Shown here: positions 23,238 to 55,484 of the stretch, one piece after another | Numbering within the stretch: the stretch's first letter is position 1 | How the letters are laid out: the number at the start of each line of letters is the position of its first letter | Assembly: GCA_017518185.1 (NCBI GenBank) | Contig: JAFWWB010000069.1 | Coordinates: 16,826 to 80,825, forward strand | From: Lachnospiraceae bacterium | GTDB taxonomy: Bacteria; Bacillota; Clostridia; Lachnospirales; Lachnospiraceae | DNA length: 64,000 nucleotides | Reading direction: 5' to 3' | Position numbers and translations under genes: made by a program | Notes under the pieces: generated by a model | Databases searched by the model: none | What the model saw: the letters and a program-made list of their open reading frames with translations, nothing else | What the model was told of the DNA's origin: nothing

Positions 23238-23882
23238 ATGGCACAGATATATCTTTCGGAAGTAAAGCTTCTGGAAAATGAAAGGAACGCAAAGGAAGCC
23301 CTGGACGGGGTGGATCCTCTCCGCAGGGAGGAAGCGGCAAAGGTAAAGGATGTGAAGAAAAAAGCACAGATCCTTACCGCAGGCCTCCTGCTCCAGCACG
23401 GAGCCAGGGAATTCCTGGGTGATAAGGCGCCCGCGGGTATATACAACGTGGCGGTGGAAGAGGGCGGAAAGCCTTATTTCACCGATATCGAGGGTGTGTA
23501 TTTTTCCATTTCGCATTCGGCGGATATGGCCCTCTGCGCCATCTCGGATGTAAGGGTCGGAGCGGATATACAGCAGAGAAGGGAGATACGCAGCGATATA
23601 GCCGGCCGTTTCTTCCATCCGGATGAGACAGAGTTTCTGCGCAAGCTCAGCGTCAACGAGTCGGAGAAGGCCTTCTTCGATCTCTGGTGCCTTAAGGAAA
23701 GCTATGTTAAATTTACCGGCGGCGGTCTGTCACAGGGACTGGATGAGCTTGATTTCACCCCTGTGCTGGGAGGCGGCTTTGCCGTTTTTGAATTCACCGA
23801 GAACGGGAGCAGGATAAGGGCGGAGCTGGTTGACGCTCCCCACGGATACTCCGCTGCGGTGATAGAGGAGGTACGATCATGA
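23238..23882 (+). CDS. 4'-phosphopantetheinyl transferase (Sfp-type)
   Basis: Transfers phosphopantetheine from CoA to carrier proteins, 214 aa. The two signature motifs are present: VGADIQ (about 111-116) and WCLKESYVKFTG (about 152-163), with the Mg-binding Asp and Glu residues. The two-domain length fits the Sfp/AcpT class rather than the ~120-aa AcpS type. No polyketide or peptide synthetase genes lie in the window, so its carrier protein is unknown. The stop codon lies inside a nested inverted repeat. Confidence 0.88.
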   Translation: MAQIYLSEVKLLENERNAKEALDGVDPLRREEAAKVKDVKKKAQILTAGLLLQHGAREFLGDKAPAGIYNVAVEEGGKPYFTDIEGVYFSISHSADMALCAISDVRVGADIQQRREIRSDIAGRFFHPDETEFLRKLSVNESEKAFFDLWCLKESYVKFTGGGLSQGLDELDFTPVLGGGFAVFEFTENGSRIRAELVDAPHGYSAAVIEEVRS

Positions 23883-23907
23883 CGAAGTCATGATTCTGCA
23901 TCGTACC
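23870..23907 (+). other. Nested inverted repeat over the phosphopantetheinyl transferase stop codon
   Basis: ATCATGAC-GAA-GTCATGAT (23876-23894) is a perfect 8-bp stem with a 3-base loop. It is flanked by an outer pair GGTACG (23870-23875) and CGTACC (23902-23907). There is no U-run, so it is not an ordinary terminator; it may be an RNA processing or stability element or a protein site. Confidence 0.5.
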
Positions 23908-23966
23908 GACGACTGGCCGCCGACCGAAAGGGAGGGGGCGATACCTATTATAAAGGAGGTGCGATC

Positions 23967-24346: not shown

Positions 24347-24419
24347 GCTGCCTTGGCGCAGCTGGTAGCGCGCATCCTTGGTAAGGATGAGGTCGGCAGT
24401 TCAAATCTGCTAGGCAGCT
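24347..24419 (+). tRNA. tRNA-Thr (GGT)
   Basis: A complete 73-nt cloverleaf: acceptor GCTGCCT/AGGCAGC, anticodon stem CATCC/GGATG, loop TTGGTAA with anticodon GGT at 24380-24382, and T-arm with TTCAAAT. It reads ACC and ACU. No CCA is encoded, so the tail must be added after transcription. Confidence 0.95.
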
Positions 24420-49281: not shown

Positions 49282-49527
49282 ATGACTGTTAAACTCAGAT
49301 CAGTTGGGAACAGTATGACTATTACCATTCCCAGGGATGTCGTAAAACTATATAATCTGACCCAGGGATCAGAAGTATCTATTGAAGCTGTGAATGATGG
49401 TATTCTGGTAAAACCGGTAGAGCATCATCAGGATGTTACTGTGCGTTCTTTGTTTGCCGGGTATACAGGTGACTATAAGCCGACTGAAGTAGACTGGGGA
49501 GACAAAAGAGGTAATGAGATATGGTAA
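49282..49527 (+). CDS. AbrB/MazE-family antitoxin
   Basis: An 81-aa SpoVT/AbrB swapped-hairpin protein, with VKLRSVGNSMTITIPRDVVK (residues 2-21) as the DNA-binding beta part and an acidic C-terminal tail that should bind the toxin. It lies upstream of and overlaps the toxin gene by 7 bases, the standard antitoxin-first order. It is visibly more AT-rich than its neighbours, which suggests transfer. Confidence 0.88.
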   Translation: MTVKLRSVGNSMTITIPRDVVKLYNLTQGSEVSIEAVNDGILVKPVEHHQDVTVRSLFAGYTGDYKPTEVDWGDKRGNEIW

Positions 49528-49868
49528 GACAAGGAGATATCATTCTTATTGATTTTGGTCCGGTGATAGGGCATGAAGAAGATAAATACAGACCCGGCCT
49601 TGTAGTCAGTAATGATGATTATAACGATTATTGCGGAGGTATTGTTTTGGTGTGCCCTATCTCTCATTCGAAAGATTTTCCGCTCCATATCGATCTGCCG
49701 GAAGGATTGAAAACCGATGGAAAAGTATTATGTGAGCATATACGTTCATTAGATATAAATGCAGGGAAATACAAGTATGTGGAAACTGTACCGGGATTTT
49801 TTACGGATACCATTTCTGATATATTAAAAGCCTGTGTGGATGTTAATGTAAAAGCAAGTGATGTTTAG
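49521..49868 (+). CDS. MazF/PemK-family toxin (mRNA endoribonuclease)
   Basis: A 115-aa member of the MazF fold, with RQGDIILIDFGPVIGHEEDK (about 3-22), YRPGLVVSN (about 23-31) and a conserved GKVLCEHIRSLD block (about 72-83). It should cleave mRNA when free and be blocked by the preceding antitoxin. An intrinsic terminator follows 20 bases past the stop. The pair is a self-contained, AT-rich cassette between an ABC exporter and an amino-acid uptake operon. Confidence 0.88.
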   Translation: MVRQGDIILIDFGPVIGHEEDKYRPGLVVSNDDYNDYCGGIVLVCPISHSKDFPLHIDLPEGLKTDGKVLCEHIRSLDINAGKYKYVETVPGFFTDTISDILKACVDVNVKASDV

Positions 49869-49888: not shown

Positions 49889-49916
49889 GCCCTCCCCCCT
49901 TGGGGAGGGCTTTTTA
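49889..49916 (+). terminator. Intrinsic terminator after the toxin gene
   Basis: GCCCTCCCC (49889-49897), loop CCTT, GGGGAGGGC (49902-49910), then TTTTT. A perfect 9-bp stem. Confidence 0.92.
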
Positions 49917-49944: not shown

Positions 49945-49973
49945 TTGACATAGTAGGTATATGGTGGTATAGT
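49945..49973 (+). promoter_or_regulatory. Promoter of the amino-acid uptake operon and its leader peptide
   Basis: TTGACA (49945-49950), 17-bp spacer, TATAGT (49968-49973). The start point would be near 49980, giving a ~230-nt leader before the lipoprotein gene. Confidence 0.8.
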
Positions 49974-50007: not shown

Positions 50008-50112
50008 GTGAAGCGTACCAGCAGAGAACTGATGTGTATGTGTATGTGTCATAAGTGTTTCTCCCGGGCGCGATGCAGGACCGGGGAGACGGCTCGAATG
50101 TCGTGTCCCTGA
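50008..50112 (+). CDS. Cys/Met-rich leader peptide (34 aa)
   Basis: A short ORF with GTG start at 50008 and AGAGGAGG at 49991-49998. It begins MKRTSRELMCMCMCHKC; six of the 34 residues are Cys (positions 10, 12, 14, 17, 23, 33) and Met alternates with Cys at 9, 11 and 13. It ends at TGA 50110-50112, inside a leader with mutually exclusive hairpins and a terminator. This is the layout of ribosome-mediated attenuation sensing charged tRNA-Cys and perhaps tRNA-Met. The downstream genes encode amino-acid uptake, matching that role. Confidence 0.7.
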   Translation: MKRTSRELMCMCMCHKCFSRARCRTGETARMSCP

Positions 50113-50171
50113 ACATGTTGAAGAAAGATAACATGTTGTCATGAGCCCGGGGTTATGCCCGGATTTTTTTT
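50060..50171 (+). promoter_or_regulatory. Attenuator hairpins and terminator of the uptake operon
   Basis: Hairpin 1 pairs TCTCCCGG (50060-50067) with CCGGGGAGA (50081-50089), with one bulged G. Hairpin 2 is AACATGTT (50112-50119) with AACATGTT (50130-50137). Hairpin 3 is CCGGG (50147-50151) with CCCGG (50158-50162) followed by eight T, a terminator. CCCGGGC at 50063-50069 can instead pair over 7 bp with GCCCGGG (50145-50151), and CCGGG at 50081-50085 with CCCGG at 50146-50150. Arms 1 and 2 both lie within the leader ORF, so ribosome position can choose between folds. Confidence 0.65.
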
Positions 50172-50207: not shown

Positions 50208-51899
50208 ATGAAAAAGAAGAATATTTTGGAAGGAATACTTGCACTGGGACTCGGAGCGGCACTGCTCACCGGATGCTCAAATGCACAGGCCGCCGATGCG
50301 GAGCCTTCGAAGGCTCCCGAAAGCGGCTCCCGCATCTACAGGACGGTGGATGAGATCAAGGCAGCCGGCAGCGTGAACATCGGCGTGTTCTCCGACAAGA
50401 ACCCTTTCGGTTACGTTGACGAGAACGGAGAATATCAGGGCTATGATGTTTACTTCGCAGAGCGCATAGGCCGGGATCTGGGAGTGGATATCAACTACGT
50501 ATCCACGGAGGCCGCCAGCAGGGTGGAATACCTGGAGACCGGTAAGGTGGATATAGTGCTCGCCAACTTCACGGTTACCGAAGAGAGGGCACAGAAGGTA
50601 GATTTCGCACTTCCCTATATGAATGTGGCACTGGGAGTTGTTTCAAAGGAAGATCATGTGATCAGCGACCTGAGCGAGATAGGTGCGGACGAGCAGGTGA
50701 TAGTCATCTCCGGAACCACCGCAGAGACCTACCTTGAGCAGAACAACCCGGAGATAAAGCTGCAGAAGTTCGATACCTATGCGGCAGCCAAGACCTCTTT
50801 TGAGAACGGCAGCGGCGTGGCATGGGCAAACGATAATACCGAAGTCATCGCATATGCGCTGGAGAATCCCGGATATGTGGTGGGCATCCCTTCGCTGGGC
50901 AGCCAGGACACCATTGCCCCCGCAGTATCCAAGGGCAATGAAAGCCTTCTTAACTGGCTCAATGACGAGATCAGGACCCTGGGAGATGAGAATTTCTTCC
51001 ATGCTGATTATGAAGCAACCCTGCTTGATACCTACGGCGCAGATTATGAGGATACCCTTGTTGTGGAAGGCGGTGTGACCGCTGGCGGCACAGCTGTAGA
51101 GACCGGAGCAGCCGGGAACGAAGCACCCGCAGCTGAGGGCGGCCTGGATATCCCTCAGGGTAACGGCGAAGTCATAAAGATCGCAGCATCCCCCATACCT
51201 CACGCAGAGATCCTTGAGAAGGCAGCGGACATACTGGACGACTACGGTTACGAACTGGATATCGTGGAGTTTGAGGATTATGTACAGCCCAACCTGGTAG
51301 TGGAATCCGGCGAGTTCGATGCAAACTATGTGGAGCATGTGCCTTACCTCAACAGCTTTAACGAGGAGCAGGGAACCCATCTTGTAAATGCAGGCGGCAT
51401 CCACTATGAGCCCTTCGGTATCTATCCCGGAACAAAGAACAGCCTTGCCGATATCGCAGACGGCGACCATATCGCAGTACCCAATGATACGACAAACGAG
51501 GCACGCGCCCTTCTCCTTCTCCAGGACAACGGGCTGCTGACCCTGAAGGAAGGGGCAGGCCTTACCGCCACCATAAACGATATCGTGGAGAACCCTTACA
51601 ACATCGAGTTCGTTGAGCTGGAGGCAGCACAGGTGGCAAGAGTGGTGAGCGAAGTTGAGTATGTGGTGCTGAACGGCAACTACGCACTGGAGGCAGGCTA
51701 CTCCGTAGGAAGGGATTCCATAGCATATGAGTCCACGGATTCGGTGGCCGCACAGACCTACGTAAACATCATAGCCGTATATGAGGGCAATGAGAACAGC
51801 GATAAGATAAAGGCGCTGGTCAGCGTTCTCAGATCCGAAGAGATCGAGAAGTTTATCACGGATACCTACGACGGAGCGGTGGTATTCTACAAGAACTGA
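50208..51899 (+). CDS. Lipoprotein with two fused solute-binding domains (family 3 + NlpA/MetQ)
   Basis: A 563-aa surface lipoprotein. The lipobox LTGC puts the lipid-modified Cys at about residue 22. Residues ~42-285 are a family-3 amino-acid-binding domain (GVFSDKNPFGYVDENGEYQG, YDVYFAERIG). A Gly/Ala/Glu-rich linker follows (~286-320). Residues ~322-563 are an NlpA/MetQ domain (KIAASPIPHAEIL, DANYVEHVPYLNSF, GIYPGT). The first family includes cystine binders and the second methionine binders; both specificities here are inferred. It heads an operon with two ABC sets, one matching each domain. I know of no common precedent for this fusion. Confidence 0.88.
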   Translation: MKKKNILEGILALGLGAALLTGCSNAQAADAEPSKAPESGSRIYRTVDEIKAAGSVNIGVFSDKNPFGYVDENGEYQGYDVYFAERIGRDLGVDINYVSTEAASRVEYLETGKVDIVLANFTVTEERAQKVDFALPYMNVALGVVSKEDHVISDLSEIGADEQVIVISGTTAETYLEQNNPEIKLQKFDTYAAAKTSFENGSGVAWANDNTEVIAYALENPGYVVGIPSLGSQDTIAPAVSKGNESLLNWLNDEIRTLGDENFFHADYEATLLDTYGADYEDTLVVEGGVTAGGTAVETGAAGNEAPAAEGGLDIPQGNGEVIKIAASPIPHAEILEKAADILDDYGYELDIVEFEDYVQPNLVVESGEFDANYVEHVPYLNSFNEEQGTHLVNAGGIHYEPFGIYPGTKNSLADIADGDHIAVPNDTTNEARALLLLQDNGLLTLKEGAGLTATINDIVENPYNIEFVELEAAQVARVVSEVEYVVLNGNYALEAGYSVGRDSIAYESTDSVAAQTYVNIIAVYEGNENSDKIKALVSVLRSEEIEKFITDTYDGAVVFYKN

Positions 51900-51912
51900 G
51901 TACAGATCATCT

Positions 51913-51932
51913 GAGGGCCCTTCGGGGCCCTC
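51913..51932 (+). other. UUCG-capped hairpin between lipoprotein and transporter genes
   Basis: GAGGGCCC-TTCG-GGGCCCTC is a perfect 8-bp stem with a stable TTCG tetraloop, 13 bases past the lipoprotein stop. No U-run follows. It probably stabilises the upstream mRNA 3' end or reduces downstream expression, so that the binding protein is made in excess. Confidence 0.7.
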
Positions 51933-51953
51933 TTGCAGGCGAAGGAGAACACA

Positions 51954-52739
51954 ATGGGCAGGATAGAGATCAGACATCTGACAAAGAGATTCGAGACGCA
52001 GGAGGATAGCCTGACCGCGCTGGATGATGTGAACCTTATCATAGAGGAAGGCAGCATCTACGGCATAATAGGAATGAGCGGTGCCGGAAAGAGCACCCTG
52101 GTGCGTTCCATAAACCATCTGGAAAAGCCCACGGAAGGACAGGTCCTCATCGACGGAGTGGACCTGGGCAGCCTTTCGGAGAAGGAGCTTCGGGCGGAGC
52201 GCAGAAAGATAGGAATGATATTCCAGGGCTTCAATCTCCTGGAGCAGAAGAACGTTCTGGATAATGTATGTTTTCCCATGCTGATCGCGGGGATAAAGAA
52301 AAAGGATGCAAGACAGAAGGCAGAGGGACTGCTTGAGAGCGTAGGTCTGAAGGATAAGATGAAGGAGTATCCCTCCCGTCTTTCCGGAGGCCAGAAGCAG
52401 CGGGTAGCGATAGCAAGGGCCCTGGCCATGGAACCGAAGATACTGCTCTGTGATGAGGCCACCAGCGCGCTGGATCCCAGGACCGCCGGTGCCATACTGG
52501 AGCTTTTAAAGGATATAAACAAAAGACTTTCCATCACCATAGTGGTGATCACCCACCAGATGAACGTGGTAACGGAGATCTGCGACAGGGTGGCTGTAGT
52601 AGAAGACGGAAGGGTCATAGAGGAAGGCCCTGTGGACAGGATCTTTGAGGATGCGGAGCCGGGACACACCGGGGGCGCGGTTTTCGGAGGAAGAGAGAAC
52701 ATACGCTTTAAGCTTAAGGAGGTGAAAAGATATGCCTGA
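51954..52739 (+). CDS. metN: MetN-like ABC ATPase lacking the C-terminal NIL domain
   Basis: A 261-aa ATPase. Walker A GMSGAGKSTLVR (about 38-49), signature LSGGQKQRVAIARAL (about 143-157) and Walker B ILLCDEATSALDP (about 163-175) are intact. It groups with MetN by its partner, the MetI-like permease that overlaps its end by 8 bases. Canonical MetN is ~340 aa with a NIL/ACT-like domain that senses internal methionine; here the protein stops soon after the ATPase fold. ATG 51954 with GAAGGAG is the start, not the in-frame TTG at 51933. Confidence 0.82.
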   Translation: MGRIEIRHLTKRFETQEDSLTALDDVNLIIEEGSIYGIIGMSGAGKSTLVRSINHLEKPTEGQVLIDGVDLGSLSEKELRAERRKIGMIFQGFNLLEQKNVLDNVCFPMLIAGIKKKDARQKAEGLLESVGLKDKMKEYPSRLSGGQKQRVAIARALAMEPKILLCDEATSALDPRTAGAILELLKDINKRLSITIVVITHQMNVVTEICDRVAVVEDGRVIEEGPVDRIFEDAEPGHTGGAVFGGRENIRFKLKEVKRYA

Positions 52740-53394
52740 TGAGAAAACGGTACAGATGCTGCTTGAAGGAATAAGGGATACCCTTTATATGACCCTTACT
52801 TCCACAGCCCTGGCTTACCTGCTGGGCCTTCCCTTAGGCATATTGCTCACCCTCAGCCGTAAGGACGGCCTTAAGCCCAACCGCGTCATCTACGGCATAC
52901 TGGGCACTGTCTGCAACACGGTAAGGAGCGTGCCCTTCCTTATACTGCTCATAGTGCTGATACCCTTTACCAGGGCTCTGGTGGGCAGAAGCTATGGCTC
53001 CACCGCCACCATAGTACCGCTGGTGATCTGCGCCGCACCCTATGTGGCAAGAGTGGTGGAGGCGTCTCTGAATGAAGTGGATCCCGGAGTCATCGAGGCG
53101 GCCAGGGCCATGGGGGCATCCAACCTTCAGATAGTATTCAGGGTGCTGCTGGTGGAGGGCAAGACCTCCCTGCTGGCAGGGGCGACCATAACCACAGGCA
53201 TACTGCTGGGTTATTCCGCAATGTCCGGAACAGTGGGCGGCGGCGGCCTCGGAGACATCGCCGTGCGCTACGGTTATTACCGCTGGCAGACGGATATCAT
53301 GGTAATAACGGTGGTTTTGCTGATAGTGATCTTCCAGCTTATACAGAGCTTCGGGAACGGCATAGTTAAGCTTACTGATCACAGGAAGAGGTAG
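52732..53394 (+). CDS. metI: MetI-like ABC permease
   Basis: A 220-aa permease with five hydrophobic segments. It matches MetI by the opening LLEGIRDTLYMTLTSTALAY (about 10-29) and the conserved GTVGGGGLGDIAVRYGYYRW region (about 166-185). The EAA loop is seen in EAARAMGASNLQIVFRVLL. It should form the membrane channel with the MetN-like ATPase and take substrate from the NlpA/MetQ domain of the fused lipoprotein. It starts within the 3' end of the ATPase gene. Confidence 0.87.
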   Translation: MPDEKTVQMLLEGIRDTLYMTLTSTALAYLLGLPLGILLTLSRKDGLKPNRVIYGILGTVCNTVRSVPFLILLIVLIPFTRALVGRSYGSTATIVPLVICAAPYVARVVEASLNEVDPGVIEAARAMGASNLQIVFRVLLVEGKTSLLAGATITTGILLGYSAMSGTVGGGGLGDIAVRYGYYRWQTDIMVITVVLLIVIFQLIQSFGNGIVKLTDHRKR

Positions 53395-53403
53395 GAGGCC
53401 CGG

Positions 53404-54063
53404 ATGGATACGGAAGCCATAAGGGAATATCTGCCGCGCTTTGCAGAGGCCTTTCTCCTTACCGTGAGGATTGGCTGGATGGGGATAGGTCTGTCCCTGG
53501 TCATCGGTATAGCCGGGGCCTTTATCCTGCATTACCGCGTCCCCGTCCTGAAGGGACTGACGAAGGGCTATATCGAGCTGTTCAGGAATACGCCTCTTCT
53601 TGTGCAGCTCTTCTTTATCTATTTCGGGCTGCCGAAGCTGGGAGTGATGATATCCCCTGAGGTCTGCGGCTTTGTGGGACTGGGGCTTCTCGGAGGCAGT
53701 TATATGGCCGAGAGCTTCAGGAGCGGTCTGGAAGCAGTGCCCGGCATTCAGAGCGAGAGCGCCTTGAGCCTGGGTATGAACAGAAGGCAGATCTTCTTCT
53801 ATGTGGTGCTTCCCCAGGCCTTTGCTGTCAGTTCGCCTTCCGTGGTGGCTAACGTCATCTTTCTCCTTAAGGAGACCAGTGTTTTTTCAGCCATAAGCCT
53901 TATGGATCTGATGTTTACGGCTAAGGACCTTATCGGTCTATACTACAGGACCACGGAATGCCTGACGCTGCTTGTGGTATTTTATGTGATAATGCTGCTA
54001 CCCGTGTCGATAGTGGGTAGAGTCCTTGAAAAGAAAGTCAGGAGCGGGTACAGTCATGGGTGA
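53404..54063 (+). CDS. Polar amino-acid ABC permease (HisM/GlnP type), subunit 1
   Basis: A 219-aa permease of the family that imports polar amino acids and cystine. FLLTVRIGWMGIGLSLVIGI (about 18-37) and FRNTPLLVQLFFIYFGLPKL (about 60-79) are characteristic, with an EAA-like loop ESALSLGMNRRQIFFYVVLPQ (about 118-138, minus its ends). AGGAGG precedes the ATG. The second permease overlaps its end by 8 bases, suggesting a heterodimeric channel. Confidence 0.87.
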   Translation: MDTEAIREYLPRFAEAFLLTVRIGWMGIGLSLVIGIAGAFILHYRVPVLKGLTKGYIELFRNTPLLVQLFFIYFGLPKLGVMISPEVCGFVGLGLLGGSYMAESFRSGLEAVPGIQSESALSLGMNRRQIFFYVVLPQAFAVSSPSVVANVIFLLKETSVFSAISLMDLMFTAKDLIGLYYRTTECLTLLVVFYVIMLLPVSIVGRVLEKKVRSGYSHG

Positions 54064-54742
54064 TGTGATAACAGGGCTTGGATTTGACGTATTATGGAAA
54101 GGCAGCAACTGGCTGCGTCTTCTCGGTGGCCTTCTGACCGCCCTTGAGATCAGCCTGTTTTCGGTACTCATAAGCCTGGCGGCGGGAAGCCTGCTGGGAG
54201 TGCTCATGTCCCTGAATAAAAAGGCAATAGACATTTTTTCAAAGCTGTATCTGGAGATCATACGCATCATGCCCCAGATGGTGCTGCTCTTTATCGTATA
54301 TTTCGGGGCGGCAAGAGCCTGGGGGCTGAACTTCTCCCCTGAGACGGCTTCTGTCATCGTCTTCTCCCTCTGGGGAACGGCAGAGATGTCGGATCTGGTC
54401 AGGGGCTCGCTTCAGAGCATACCGAAGGCCCAGTACGAGAGCAGCGCTGCCCTGGGCATGAGCACGGCAAAGACGTACATATACGTGATAATACCCCAGA
54501 TGATACGCAGGACCCTGCCGGGCACCATAAATCTCATCACCAGGATGATAAAGACTACCAGTCTTGTGATGATGATAGGCATCGTGGAGGTGCTGAAGGT
54601 AGGGCAGCAGATAATAGAGGCAAACCGTAAGAGCTCGCCAAATGCGGCATTCGGCGTGTTTGCCACCATATTCCTTTTGTATTTTCTGGCATGCTGGCCC
54701 ATAAGCTGCCTGTCAAGATATCTGGAGAAAAAGGCGGTGTGA
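54056..54742 (+). CDS. Polar amino-acid ABC permease (HisM/GlnP type), subunit 2
   Basis: A 228-aa permease homologous to the preceding one, with LLGGLLTALEISLFSVLISL (about 22-41), LEIIRIMPQMVLLFIVYFG (about 65-83) and ESSAALGMSTAKTYIYVIIP (about 127-146). ATG 54056 has AGGAG 11 bases upstream; the longer in-frame reading from 54026 lacks a site. Together with subunit 1 and the ATPase it forms a complete importer whose binding protein is most likely the first domain of the fused lipoprotein. Confidence 0.86.
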   Translation: MGDVITGLGFDVLWKGSNWLRLLGGLLTALEISLFSVLISLAAGSLLGVLMSLNKKAIDIFSKLYLEIIRIMPQMVLLFIVYFGAARAWGLNFSPETASVIVFSLWGTAEMSDLVRGSLQSIPKAQYESSAALGMSTAKTYIYVIIPQMIRRTLPGTINLITRMIKTTSLVMMIGIVEVLKVGQQIIEANRKSSPNAAFGVFATIFLLYFLACWPISCLSRYLEKKAV

Positions 54743-54743
54743 G

Positions 54744-55484
54744 ATGGACAAGAGAGAACTCCTTTCGGCAGAACATGTTTATAAATATTTTGATGGTACT
54801 CCCATACTTCAGGATATAAACCTGAAGATAAAGAGCGGCGAGGTGGTGGTGATCATAGGGCCCTCGGGCTGCGGCAAGAGCACACTGCTGCGCTGCCTGA
54901 ACGGACTGGAAAAGATCGCTGAAGGCAAGATAGAGCTTGACGGGGATATGGTGGATCCTGCATCAAAAGAGATCTGCAGGCTGCGGGAGCGCATAGGTAT
55001 GGTGTTCCAGAGCTATGAGCTCTTTCCGCACAAGACCATACTGGACAATATCACCCTGGCACCCATAAAGGTGCAGAAGAGGAAGCGCACAGAGGCGGAG
55101 GAAGAGGCCCTTAAGCTTCTTGAAAGGATAGGCTTAAGCGCCCATAAGGATAAGCGTCCTTCACAGCTATCTGGAGGCCAGAAGCAGCGTGTAGCCATTG
55201 CCCGGGCGCTCATCATGCATCCCGAGCTGCTGCTTTTGGATGAGATCACCGCAGCGCTGGATCCGGAAATGGTCCGGGAGGTGCTGGAGGTGGTGCTGGA
55301 TCTGGCAAAAGAAGGGCGTACCATGCTGATCGTCACCCATGAGATGGCTTTCGCAAGAGCGGTGGCGGACCGCATCATCTTTATGGACGAGGGCCGTATC
55401 ATAGAAGAAGGCACTCCGGAGCGGATCTTCGAAGCCCCGGAAACGGAGCGGCTTCAGAGATTCCTGGATAATATGAGCTTCTGA
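54744..55484 (+). CDS. Polar amino-acid ABC ATPase (GlnQ type)
   Basis: A 246-aa ATPase. Walker A GPSGCGKSTLLR (about 37-48), FQSYELFPHKTILDN (Q-loop, about 87-101), signature LSGGQKQRVAIARAL (about 138-152) and Walker B LLLDEITAALDP (about 159-170) are complete. The Walker B stretch reads DEITAALD where most relatives have DEPTSALD. It is the last gene of the uptake operon; 153 bases with a new promoter separate it from feoA. Confidence 0.9.
   Translation: MDKRELLSAEHVYKYFDGTPILQDINLKIKSGEVVVIIGPSGCGKSTLLRCLNGLEKIAEGKIELDGDMVDPASKEICRLRERIGMVFQSYELFPHKTILDNITLAPIKVQKRKRTEAEEEALKLLERIGLSAHKDKRPSQLSGGQKQRVAIARALIMHPELLLLDEITAALDPEMVREVLEVVLDLAKEGRTMLIVTHEMAFARAVADRIIFMDEGRIIEEGTPERIFEAPETERLQRFLDNMSF

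Follow-up and report, generated by a model that had tools for sequence, protein, structure and literature searches.

As a rule, each receptor of an ATP-binding cassette (ABC) importer serves a single transporter. In the MetNIQ importers of Escherichia coli and Neisseria meningitidis, an NlpA/MetQ receptor serves a MetN-type ATPase and a MetI permease; cysteine receptors of the polar amino acid transport (PAAT) type, with Protein Data Bank (PDB) entries 2yjp and 1xt8 as solved examples, have HisM/GlnQ partners; and in GlnPQ (6h30), two receptors stand in series on one chain. The two heads of GlnPQ have one fold in common, and the permease to which they are joined belongs to a single transporter. 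Leader peptides with Cys codons are described upstream of cysteine genes in other lineages, namely, uORFC-8-2 ahead of cysS in Rhodobacterales (PMC8632094, excerpt) and the cys leaders of Mycobacterium, P. acnes and B. longum, of which the mycobacterial ones appear in the excerpt of the source without an obvious terminator (PMC1262725). In bacilli, a His leader peptide is described (PMC2965389, excerpt). Here, we report a locus from a 64,000-nucleotide stretch of a Lachnospiraceae bacterium (the whole stretch is hereafter called the window; assembly GCA_017518185.1, contig JAFWWB010000069.1) in which one lipoprotein carries a family-3 solute-binding protein domain (SBP_bac_3; SBP3) and an NlpA/MetQ domain in tandem, followed by the genes of two importers. 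It is likely that a cysteine-type PAAT importer and a MetNIQ importer have merged here in one operon, with their receptors fused on one anchor and their expression controlled by an attenuator.

Like MetNIQ, the locus combines an NlpA/MetQ receptor, a MetN-type ATPase and a MetI permease in one operon, and the ligand residues are conserved; however, the receptor makes up the C-terminal half of a lipoprotein with two heads and has no anchor of its own, and the MetN protein lacks the NIL domain. The front domain is 50% identical to 2yjp and 44-45% identical to 1xt8 in structure alignment, and its partners are again of the HisM/GlnQ kind, but it is fused to a receptor of another family. The two receptors in series recall GlnPQ, whereas here they belong to two Pfam receptor families and stand beside two transporters, with no permease domain in the fused protein. 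Among the matches listed, PDB chains cover one domain each, the GlnPQ tandem excepted. As in the Rhodobacterales and actinobacterial leaders, insofar as the excerpts describe them, a short open reading frame (ORF) with Cys codons lies upstream of cysteine genes; the differences lie in the lineage, in the mixed Cys/Met codons with a conserved TGTCGAATG core, and in the position of the antiterminator 5' arm inside the leader ORF. Searches of open-licence PMC papers showed no description of an SBP_bac_3-NlpA fusion or of a Lachnospiraceae Cys/Met leader. The parts are known, and what is new is their combination, in which two receptor folds share an anchor beside two importers and are retained across a lineage, together with the attenuator class.

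Architecture and distribution of the fused lipoprotein

A single open frame encodes a lipoprotein of 563 residues with the lipobox LLTGC23, in which Cys23 is the predicted lipid anchor. Both domains exceed their Pfam cut-offs by a wide range, at 95.6 bits (cut-off 26.4) for SBP_bac_3 and 262 bits (cut-off 27) for Lipoprotein_9 (NlpA/MetQ; PF03180). The low-complexity linker between the heads is free of Cys in 20 aligned fused proteins and measures 13-42 residues (median 26) over those fused loci (90 of 99) whose linker borders were both identifiable. Five genes follow on the same strand, separated by no more than about 55 bases. An earlier reading of the DNA letters alone (the original prediction) had described both this two-domain lipoprotein and the MetNI-like pair, two HisM-type permeases and GlnQ-type ATPase behind it, and profile searches confirmed each of them. 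The genes of the operon are as follows:

50208..51899, + strand: fused lipoprotein; lipobox Cys23, SBP_bac_3 domain at residues 57-258, 33-residue linker, NlpA/MetQ domain at residues 323-559
51954..52739, + strand: MetN-like ATPase; 261 residues, without NIL domain
52732..53394, + strand: MetI-like permease; NCBIfam MetI model NF008049 at 214.6 bits, cut-off 212
53404..54063, + strand: HisM/EhuC-type permease 1; Pfam/NCBIfam, TIGR01726 over cut-off
54059..54742, + strand: HisM/GlnP-type permease 2; Pfam/NCBIfam, TIGR01726 over cut-off
54744..55484, + strand: GlnQ-type ATPase; GlnQ is the best NCBIfam model, below its equivalog cut-off

The NIL domain of MetN mediates inhibition by internal methionine, and its loss from the window protein may relieve this inhibition. 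The domain is present in MetN of the relatives L038 and L039 and is missing also from L051; MetN frames reach at least 330 residues in 77 of the 89 relatives measured, versus 261 in the window.

At E <= 1e-30, matches occur in 209 of 397 genomes of the same family, and matches spanning both domains occur in at least 20 of the 397, including the window's own genome (3.3 Mb in 92 contigs, with the window on contig C49). Full-length fusions at 59-88% identity to the window protein occur in many genomes, those of 19 other family genomes being 60-88% identical. A relative is encoded in 317 of the 380 candidate stretches from named genomes, and all 80 of the best-scoring loci (the best 80 of the 317) contain the fusion. 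An assembly join of two separate genes, which had been named beforehand as a finding that would refute the proposal, was rejected, given that full-length fusions at 59-88% identity recur in many genomes; their presence in at least 20 family genomes and in all 80 of the named loci retained implies neither a chance frame nor a join. By title, the carriers are mostly Lachnospiraceae from the rumen, other gut sites and faeces, and they include Butyrivibrio sp. NC2002 and YAB3001, Lachnospiraceae NC2008 and XBB2008, Acetatifactor, Candidatus Blautia equi and many metagenome-assembled genomes.

The 19 loci from family genomes and 80 from named genomes give 99 fused loci, at least 10 of which are in both sets. 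The survey of neighbours proposed with the original prediction found the window's gene order, fusion-MetN-MetI-HisM1-HisM2-GlnQ, in 78 of the 99. In 10 of the other 21, a contig end cuts the side on which genes are missing. MetN is divided between two frames in L044 and in its copy L146, and the later operon genes are still present there; GlnQ was not found in the fused locus L088; L056 consists of the fusion, MetN and MetI only; and three loci have the order HisM1-HisM2-GlnQ-fusion-MetN-MetI. Four of the 99 (L042, L111, L132 and L150) have the fusion directly followed by HisM1-HisM2-GlnQ without MetNI, and in three of these four genomes, MetN-MetI lies elsewhere.

Two further observations concern receptors of related build. 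No lipobox Cys was found by pattern in the fused proteins L153 and L154 (Candidatus Blautia equi and an uncultured relative), which may be secreted or differently anchored. In addition, the host genome (G000) has a 771-residue open frame with two tandem SBP_bac_3 matches (C72:82877-83893; L002, L005), a same-fold tandem that serves as a comparison for the mixed-fold fusion.

Unfused relatives and split operons

In unfused relatives, the front domain is accompanied by HisM1-HisM2-GlnQ and the rear domain by MetN-MetI, each forming a separate and complete importer. In L057 and L058, both importer operons are adjacent and the receptors are unfused. These operons are the strongest argument for assigning each head to its own pump, and they agree with the earlier suggestion that each domain has a matching channel.

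Two draft genomes carry the fusion in a split arrangement. In G195 (98% complete), the fusion lies beside MetN-MetI, and HisM1-HisM2-GlnQ is on another contig, where neither SBP query matched within the 9 kb examined; the fusion is the sole PF03180 protein of this genome and its sole close SBP3 (332 bits, versus 42 for the next). G399 shows the reverse, with the fusion beside HisM1-HisM2-GlnQ and with MetN and a 78%-identical MetI on another contig of 7.2 kb, where an SBP match was not found; again, the fusion is the sole PF03180 protein. The simplest reading of both genomes is that the fused receptor would serve one pump in trans. Because the second importer in G195 and G399 is on another contig without a recognisable SBP, the fusion probably serves both importers.

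Putative ligand-binding sites of the two heads

The best solved chains for the front domain are 2yjp, the L-cysteine receptor NGO2014 (225 bits), and 1xt8, a cysteine-binding protein of C. jejuni (214 bits); the other SBP_bac_3-type chains reach at most 124 bits among the 60 PDB chains listed. Residues T122, R127, T170 and D209 do not vary among 20 fused proteins. In E. coli FliY, six contacts to docked cysteine are reported, Y51, K182 and D192 among them (PMC7170509, excerpt), and T122, R127 and T170 of the window protein align with contacts of this set. The ligand of the front head is probably L-cysteine. The original prediction had counted cystine systems among the importers that family-3 domains serve; the closest solved chains here are receptors of L-cysteine and not of cystine.

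For the rear domain, the closest solved chains among the matches listed are 4ib2 and MetQ chains. The methionine contacts given for N. meningitidis MetQ (NmMetQ) are Y81, F98, H100, Y103, R156, N213 and N238 (PMC6739813, excerpt), and their positions were transferred to the window protein by residue spacing together with an alignment to E. coli MetQ. Y81, H100, Y103, R156 and N238 correspond to Y358, H377, Y380, R433 and N520, the same residues in each case, and E. coli MetQ N229 also aligns with N520; the counterpart of N213 is expected at N489 or N491. Y358, H377, Y380, R433, N489 and N491 do not vary among the 20 aligned fused proteins, nor does N520 among the 18 that extend over it. The NCBIfam MetQ models match the rear domain below their cut-offs. 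Methionine can be assigned to the rear head with more confidence than cysteine to the front.

A leader with alternative RNA helices

The Cys/Met leader invoked in the original prediction is real and lies just outside the region considered there. It comprises the following features:

49945..49973, + strand: promoter-like site TTGACA-17-TATAGT; 11 of 12 consensus positions, a consensus match only
50008..50112, + strand: leader peptide ORF of 34 residues with an MCMCMC run; GTG start at 50008, TGA end at 50112
50061..50069, + strand: antiterminator 5' arm CTCCCGGGC, inside the leader ORF; columns 32-40 of alignment A2
50145..50153, + strand: antiterminator 3' arm, overlapping the terminator 5' arm; columns 147-155 of alignment A2
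50147..50171, + strand: intrinsic terminator CCGGGGTTATGCCCGG plus U run, from helix alignment and fold

One promoter-like site was found, versus a shuffle mean of 0.6. The 9-bp antiterminator helix, in which CTCCCGGGC pairs with the terminator 5' arm, is paired in 98.8% of 342 cells over the 38 aligned leaders of A2. Changes on both sides affect four of its pairs and 22 cells, and none of 500 shuffles scored as high; when the partner is slid by one base, pairing falls to 52.3 or 60.5%. The terminator helix is above its slid controls and only moderately above shuffles (13 of 500 reach its pairing). Both helices use the arm at columns 147-155 of A2 and are mutually exclusive. Moreover, a leader codon alternates between CAG and CGG (Gln/Arg) in step with its partner base in the terminator (18 A-U and 19 G-C of 38), and this joint switch suggests that the RNA pairing is kept, not the peptide. 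When the window RNA is folded as far as the terminator loop, the antiterminator forms, with a z score of -4.2.

A regular expression detected a leader of the same kind upstream of 54 of 93 fused genes, the window included; the 93 remained from 100 after three with an unusual start motif and four in which the fusion is not first in its operon had been dropped. Cys makes up 42% and Met 25% of the nine codons ahead of the core in 48 fused leaders (two of 50 were dropped from the codon counts), versus 1.0% and 3.2% in ten window genes, the Cys share being inflated by the selection rule and the Met share much less so. The Cys codon is TGT in 147 of 181 cases in fused leaders, versus 11 of 45 in the ten window genes.

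Rfam at gathering thresholds gave nothing at the window leader site, and neither an S-adenosylmethionine (SAM) riboswitch nor a T-box was found in 21 related loci at the same thresholds. The matches obtained in these loci, a tetrahydrofolate (THF) riboswitch (L061) and a c-di-GMP-I riboswitch (L084), are not at the operon. An Rfam identity for the leader was rejected on both grounds, the lack of a match at the site and the position of the related-locus matches elsewhere than the operon.

The leader class across the family

A covariance model (R1) was built from the fused leaders and applied with stricter filters and few candidates scored per genome, so that its counts are lower bounds. R1 matches the window's own genome once, at the fusion leader, and at least 60 sites in at least 45 of the 397 family genomes; the 50 non-fusion sites are independent of the training of the model. 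All 60 sites were inspected, and a gene of Cys/Met uptake or metabolism lies downstream of 48. The uptake genes are 10 fusions, two unfused SBP3 of the fusion's kind, two MetN, two NlpA and one HisM1; the enzymes are 29 pyridoxal phosphate (PLP) enzymes of Cys/Met metabolism (BLAST groups), one cysteine synthase and one methionine adenosyltransferase. The latter two exceed their NCBIfam cut-offs, as does one PLP representative for O-acetylhomoserine aminocarboxypropyltransferase; another representative matches cystathionine gamma-lyase/synthase models below their cut-offs. The remaining sites precede five members of a GST_C-domain group, one other SBP3-like lipoprotein (by eye) and six others, namely, PFL-like and cyclase genes (Pfam) and LysR-, HD-, SDR- and peptidase-like genes (by eye). 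When the codon motif was sought at the 50 non-fusion sites, 14 failed, 20 were labelled PLP and 16 other (L235 and L239 being PLP enzymes). The GST_C-domain proteins, of about 400 residues, follow leader sites L218, L222, L228, L231 and L240.

R1 also matches upstream of the fusion in 50 of the 80 named fused loci, 29 of which are in the training set and at least four more of which are copies of training rows. Lachnospiraceae XBB2008 (L116) and NC2008 (L118) are among the loci with such a match, whereas Butyrivibrio NC2002 (L119) and YAB3001 (L142) gave none. A second leader copy precedes a nearby O-acetylhomoserine sulfhydrylase-type gene in the fused loci L105, L111, L116, L121 and L148, and a sixth (L132) runs off its contig. 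A further match lies at a fusion from another family (L242). In many Lachnospiraceae, genes for cysteine and methionine appear to be under the control of this attenuator class. It marks a candidate lineage-wide sulfur regulon that would comprise cysK, metK, the GST_C gene and enzymes of the O-acetylhomoserine sulfhydrylase and cystathionine types.

The leaders of separate importers differ in codon content. Those of separate cysteine importers are poor in Met (L068 ACWCRM, L210 NLCCCRM, L241 NMCCCRM), those of two MetN-first operons are richer in Met (L061 MTMMYMCMFRM, L209 MKMMKVNCMCCMDRM), and fused leaders carry both Cys and Met; two NlpA-first leaders (L212 GMCCRM, L219 MMCCCRM) fit the codon pattern poorly. 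That the codon mix tracks the importer type is, at these tiny numbers, a lead and not a result.

History of the fusion

Quick trees were calculated for 41 front domains and for 39 rear domains, and groups were tested after the trees had been seen. At least eight changes of the fused label are needed on the front tree and at least four on the rear tree, of which well-supported branches alone force three and two, respectively; L243 (G758), labelled as separate in the NlpA tree although it is a broken fusion, can add one change. Unfused genes are nested among fused ones in the SBP3 tree. In the approximately unbiased (AU) tests, from which L243 and L212 were excluded, a single clade of all fused SBP3 rows was rejected (p-AU 3e-54; 3e-65 without L242), whereas a single clade of fused NlpA rows was not (p-AU 0.17; 0.19 without L242). 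A single unbroken history is rejected for the SBP3 domain and not for the NlpA domain, and we conclude from the trees that fusion, fission or domain exchange occurred more than once.

In a class-wide draw (391 genomes, E <= 1e-60), full-length fusions occur in G000, G180 and G537 among the matches listed. The fusion of G537 (L242) comes from another family; identity to the window protein is 79% over the front half and only 45% over the rear half, and the genes are arranged as HisM1-HisM2-GlnQ-fusion-MetN-MetI. Its relative L243 appears to be broken at the N-terminus, residues before about 178 being replaced by unrelated sequence. An independent fusion in G537 is likely, although the NlpA test does not reject one clade.

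Features around the operon

A MazE/MazF-type toxin-antitoxin pair (Pfam) occupies 49282-49868, directly upstream of the operon promoter, and is followed by a terminator-like site at 49889-49910. Elsewhere in the window, an Rfam GA-cis RNA (23863-23949, 89.8 bits) is followed by tRNA genes at 24347 and 24430.

Proposed mechanism and alternative explanations

Based on these results, we infer the following course of events. A cysteine-type PAAT importer (SBP3, HisM1, HisM2 and GlnQ) and a MetNIQ importer would have merged into one operon, and their receptors would have been joined head to tail with a single lipid anchor at the front head. L-cysteine would bind to the front head and methionine to the rear head, and the flexible linker would let each head dock on its own permease pair. 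One lipoprotein could then supply both pumps, with the heads at a fixed 1:1 ratio and both near the membrane. If too little charged tRNA-Cys, and perhaps tRNA-Met, were available, the ribosome would stall in the Cys/Met codon run, before CUCCCGGGC; the freed CUCCCGGGC would pair with the terminator 5' arm, transcription would continue, and the six genes would be made. Without a stall, the ribosome would cover CUCCCGGGC and the terminator would form. The core of the original prediction, a combined importer of sulfur amino acids, gains support from the separate operons of unfused relatives, from the genomes with split operons and from an attenuator class shared with Cys/Met enzymes. The linked capture of two ligands, also proposed there, would go further and require a functional coupling of the heads.

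Several observations weigh against this account. With regard to the receptor, the equivalents of FliY Y51 and K182 are not conserved in the fused front domain, and FliY D192 aligns with V204, five residues from the invariant D209; in the rear domain, the equivalent of NmMetQ F98, position 375, is Val in the window. The lipid anchor of NmMetQ is needed for full stimulation of MetNI (PMC8416018, excerpt), and the anchor of the MetQ domain here is one domain away. An AlphaFold2 model from 20 sequences was weak, with a mean predicted local distance difference test score (pLDDT) of 67.5 and a predicted template modelling score (pTM) of 0.41, and head-to-head contacts could not be judged from it. 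The window MetN, without the C-terminal NIL domain, reaches 317 bits with TIGR02314, below the cut-off of 499.7. Three further genomes make no case for service in trans: G398 is ambiguous, as a stand-alone NlpA is also present, G233 has a complete second MetNI-NlpA operon, and a MetI match was not found in G397. With regard to the leader, 39 of the 93 fused upstream regions fail the regular expression, which misses variant leaders; 30 of the 80 named fused loci have no upstream R1 match, a few of them having little upstream sequence; and R1 matches only four of the 26 unfused loci searched, one weakly. Finally, with the terminator included, the equilibrium fold of the window RNA still prefers the long-range antiterminator, so that default termination would need kinetics or the ribosome.

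It is quite possible that the fusion arose as a neutral consequence when the operons merged, in that the stop between neighbouring SBP genes was lost, the heads function just as they would separately and only co-expression was gained. The adjacent and unfused operons of L057 and L058, the short and variable linker, and the unfused genes nested among fused ones in the SBP3 tree would all fit such an origin; however, the fusion has been kept at 60-88% identity across 19 other family genomes, it persists despite operon splitting in G195 and G399, and the fusion of another family may be independent, though the NlpA tree does not reject one clade (p-AU 0.17). Recurrence of the fusion would suggest, not prove, a benefit. 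A different ligand for the front domain, for example arginine, glutamine or cystine, seems unlikely. The NCBIfam receptor models for Lys/Arg/Orn, cystine and Arg all match this domain, below their cut-offs, and the docked cysteine contacts of FliY are only partly kept, but the two cysteine receptors score far above the other SBP_bac_3-type chains among the 60 listed, and the leader class serves Cys/Met genes.

It is very improbable that the NlpA half or the MetNI half is degrading and that the cysteine importer alone matters, even though MetNI is absent between the fusion and HisM1 in four of 99 fused loci, MetN of L044 is in two frames and the window MetN has lost its NIL domain. Such a relic is unlikely because most ligand-site residues examined are invariant in the aligned fused proteins, including the seven of the rear domain listed above; in addition, MetN-MetI and the HisM set stand together in 78 of 99 loci, and MetN-MetI is retained elsewhere in three of the four genomes that miss it from the operon. 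The original prediction had discounted a relic on the ground that all motifs look intact, which agrees with the conserved ligand sites and not with the MetN protein. Returning to the merged, attenuator-controlled importers, a wider proposal may be made tentatively and is itself rather doubtful, namely, that they form a two-nutrient unit in which one tethered receptor with two unrelated heads feeds two ABC importers, even from split loci, and a lineage-specific attenuator reads the charging of tRNA-Cys and tRNA-Met in a single alternating codon run, such that one switch and one protein would set the uptake of both sulfur amino acids.

The retention of the fusion despite a split operon offers a natural test system for one tethered protein feeding two pumps, and the same system can show whether the coupled uptake of two nutrients is selected for. 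In addition, the attenuator class predicts a testable regulon in Lachnospiraceae.

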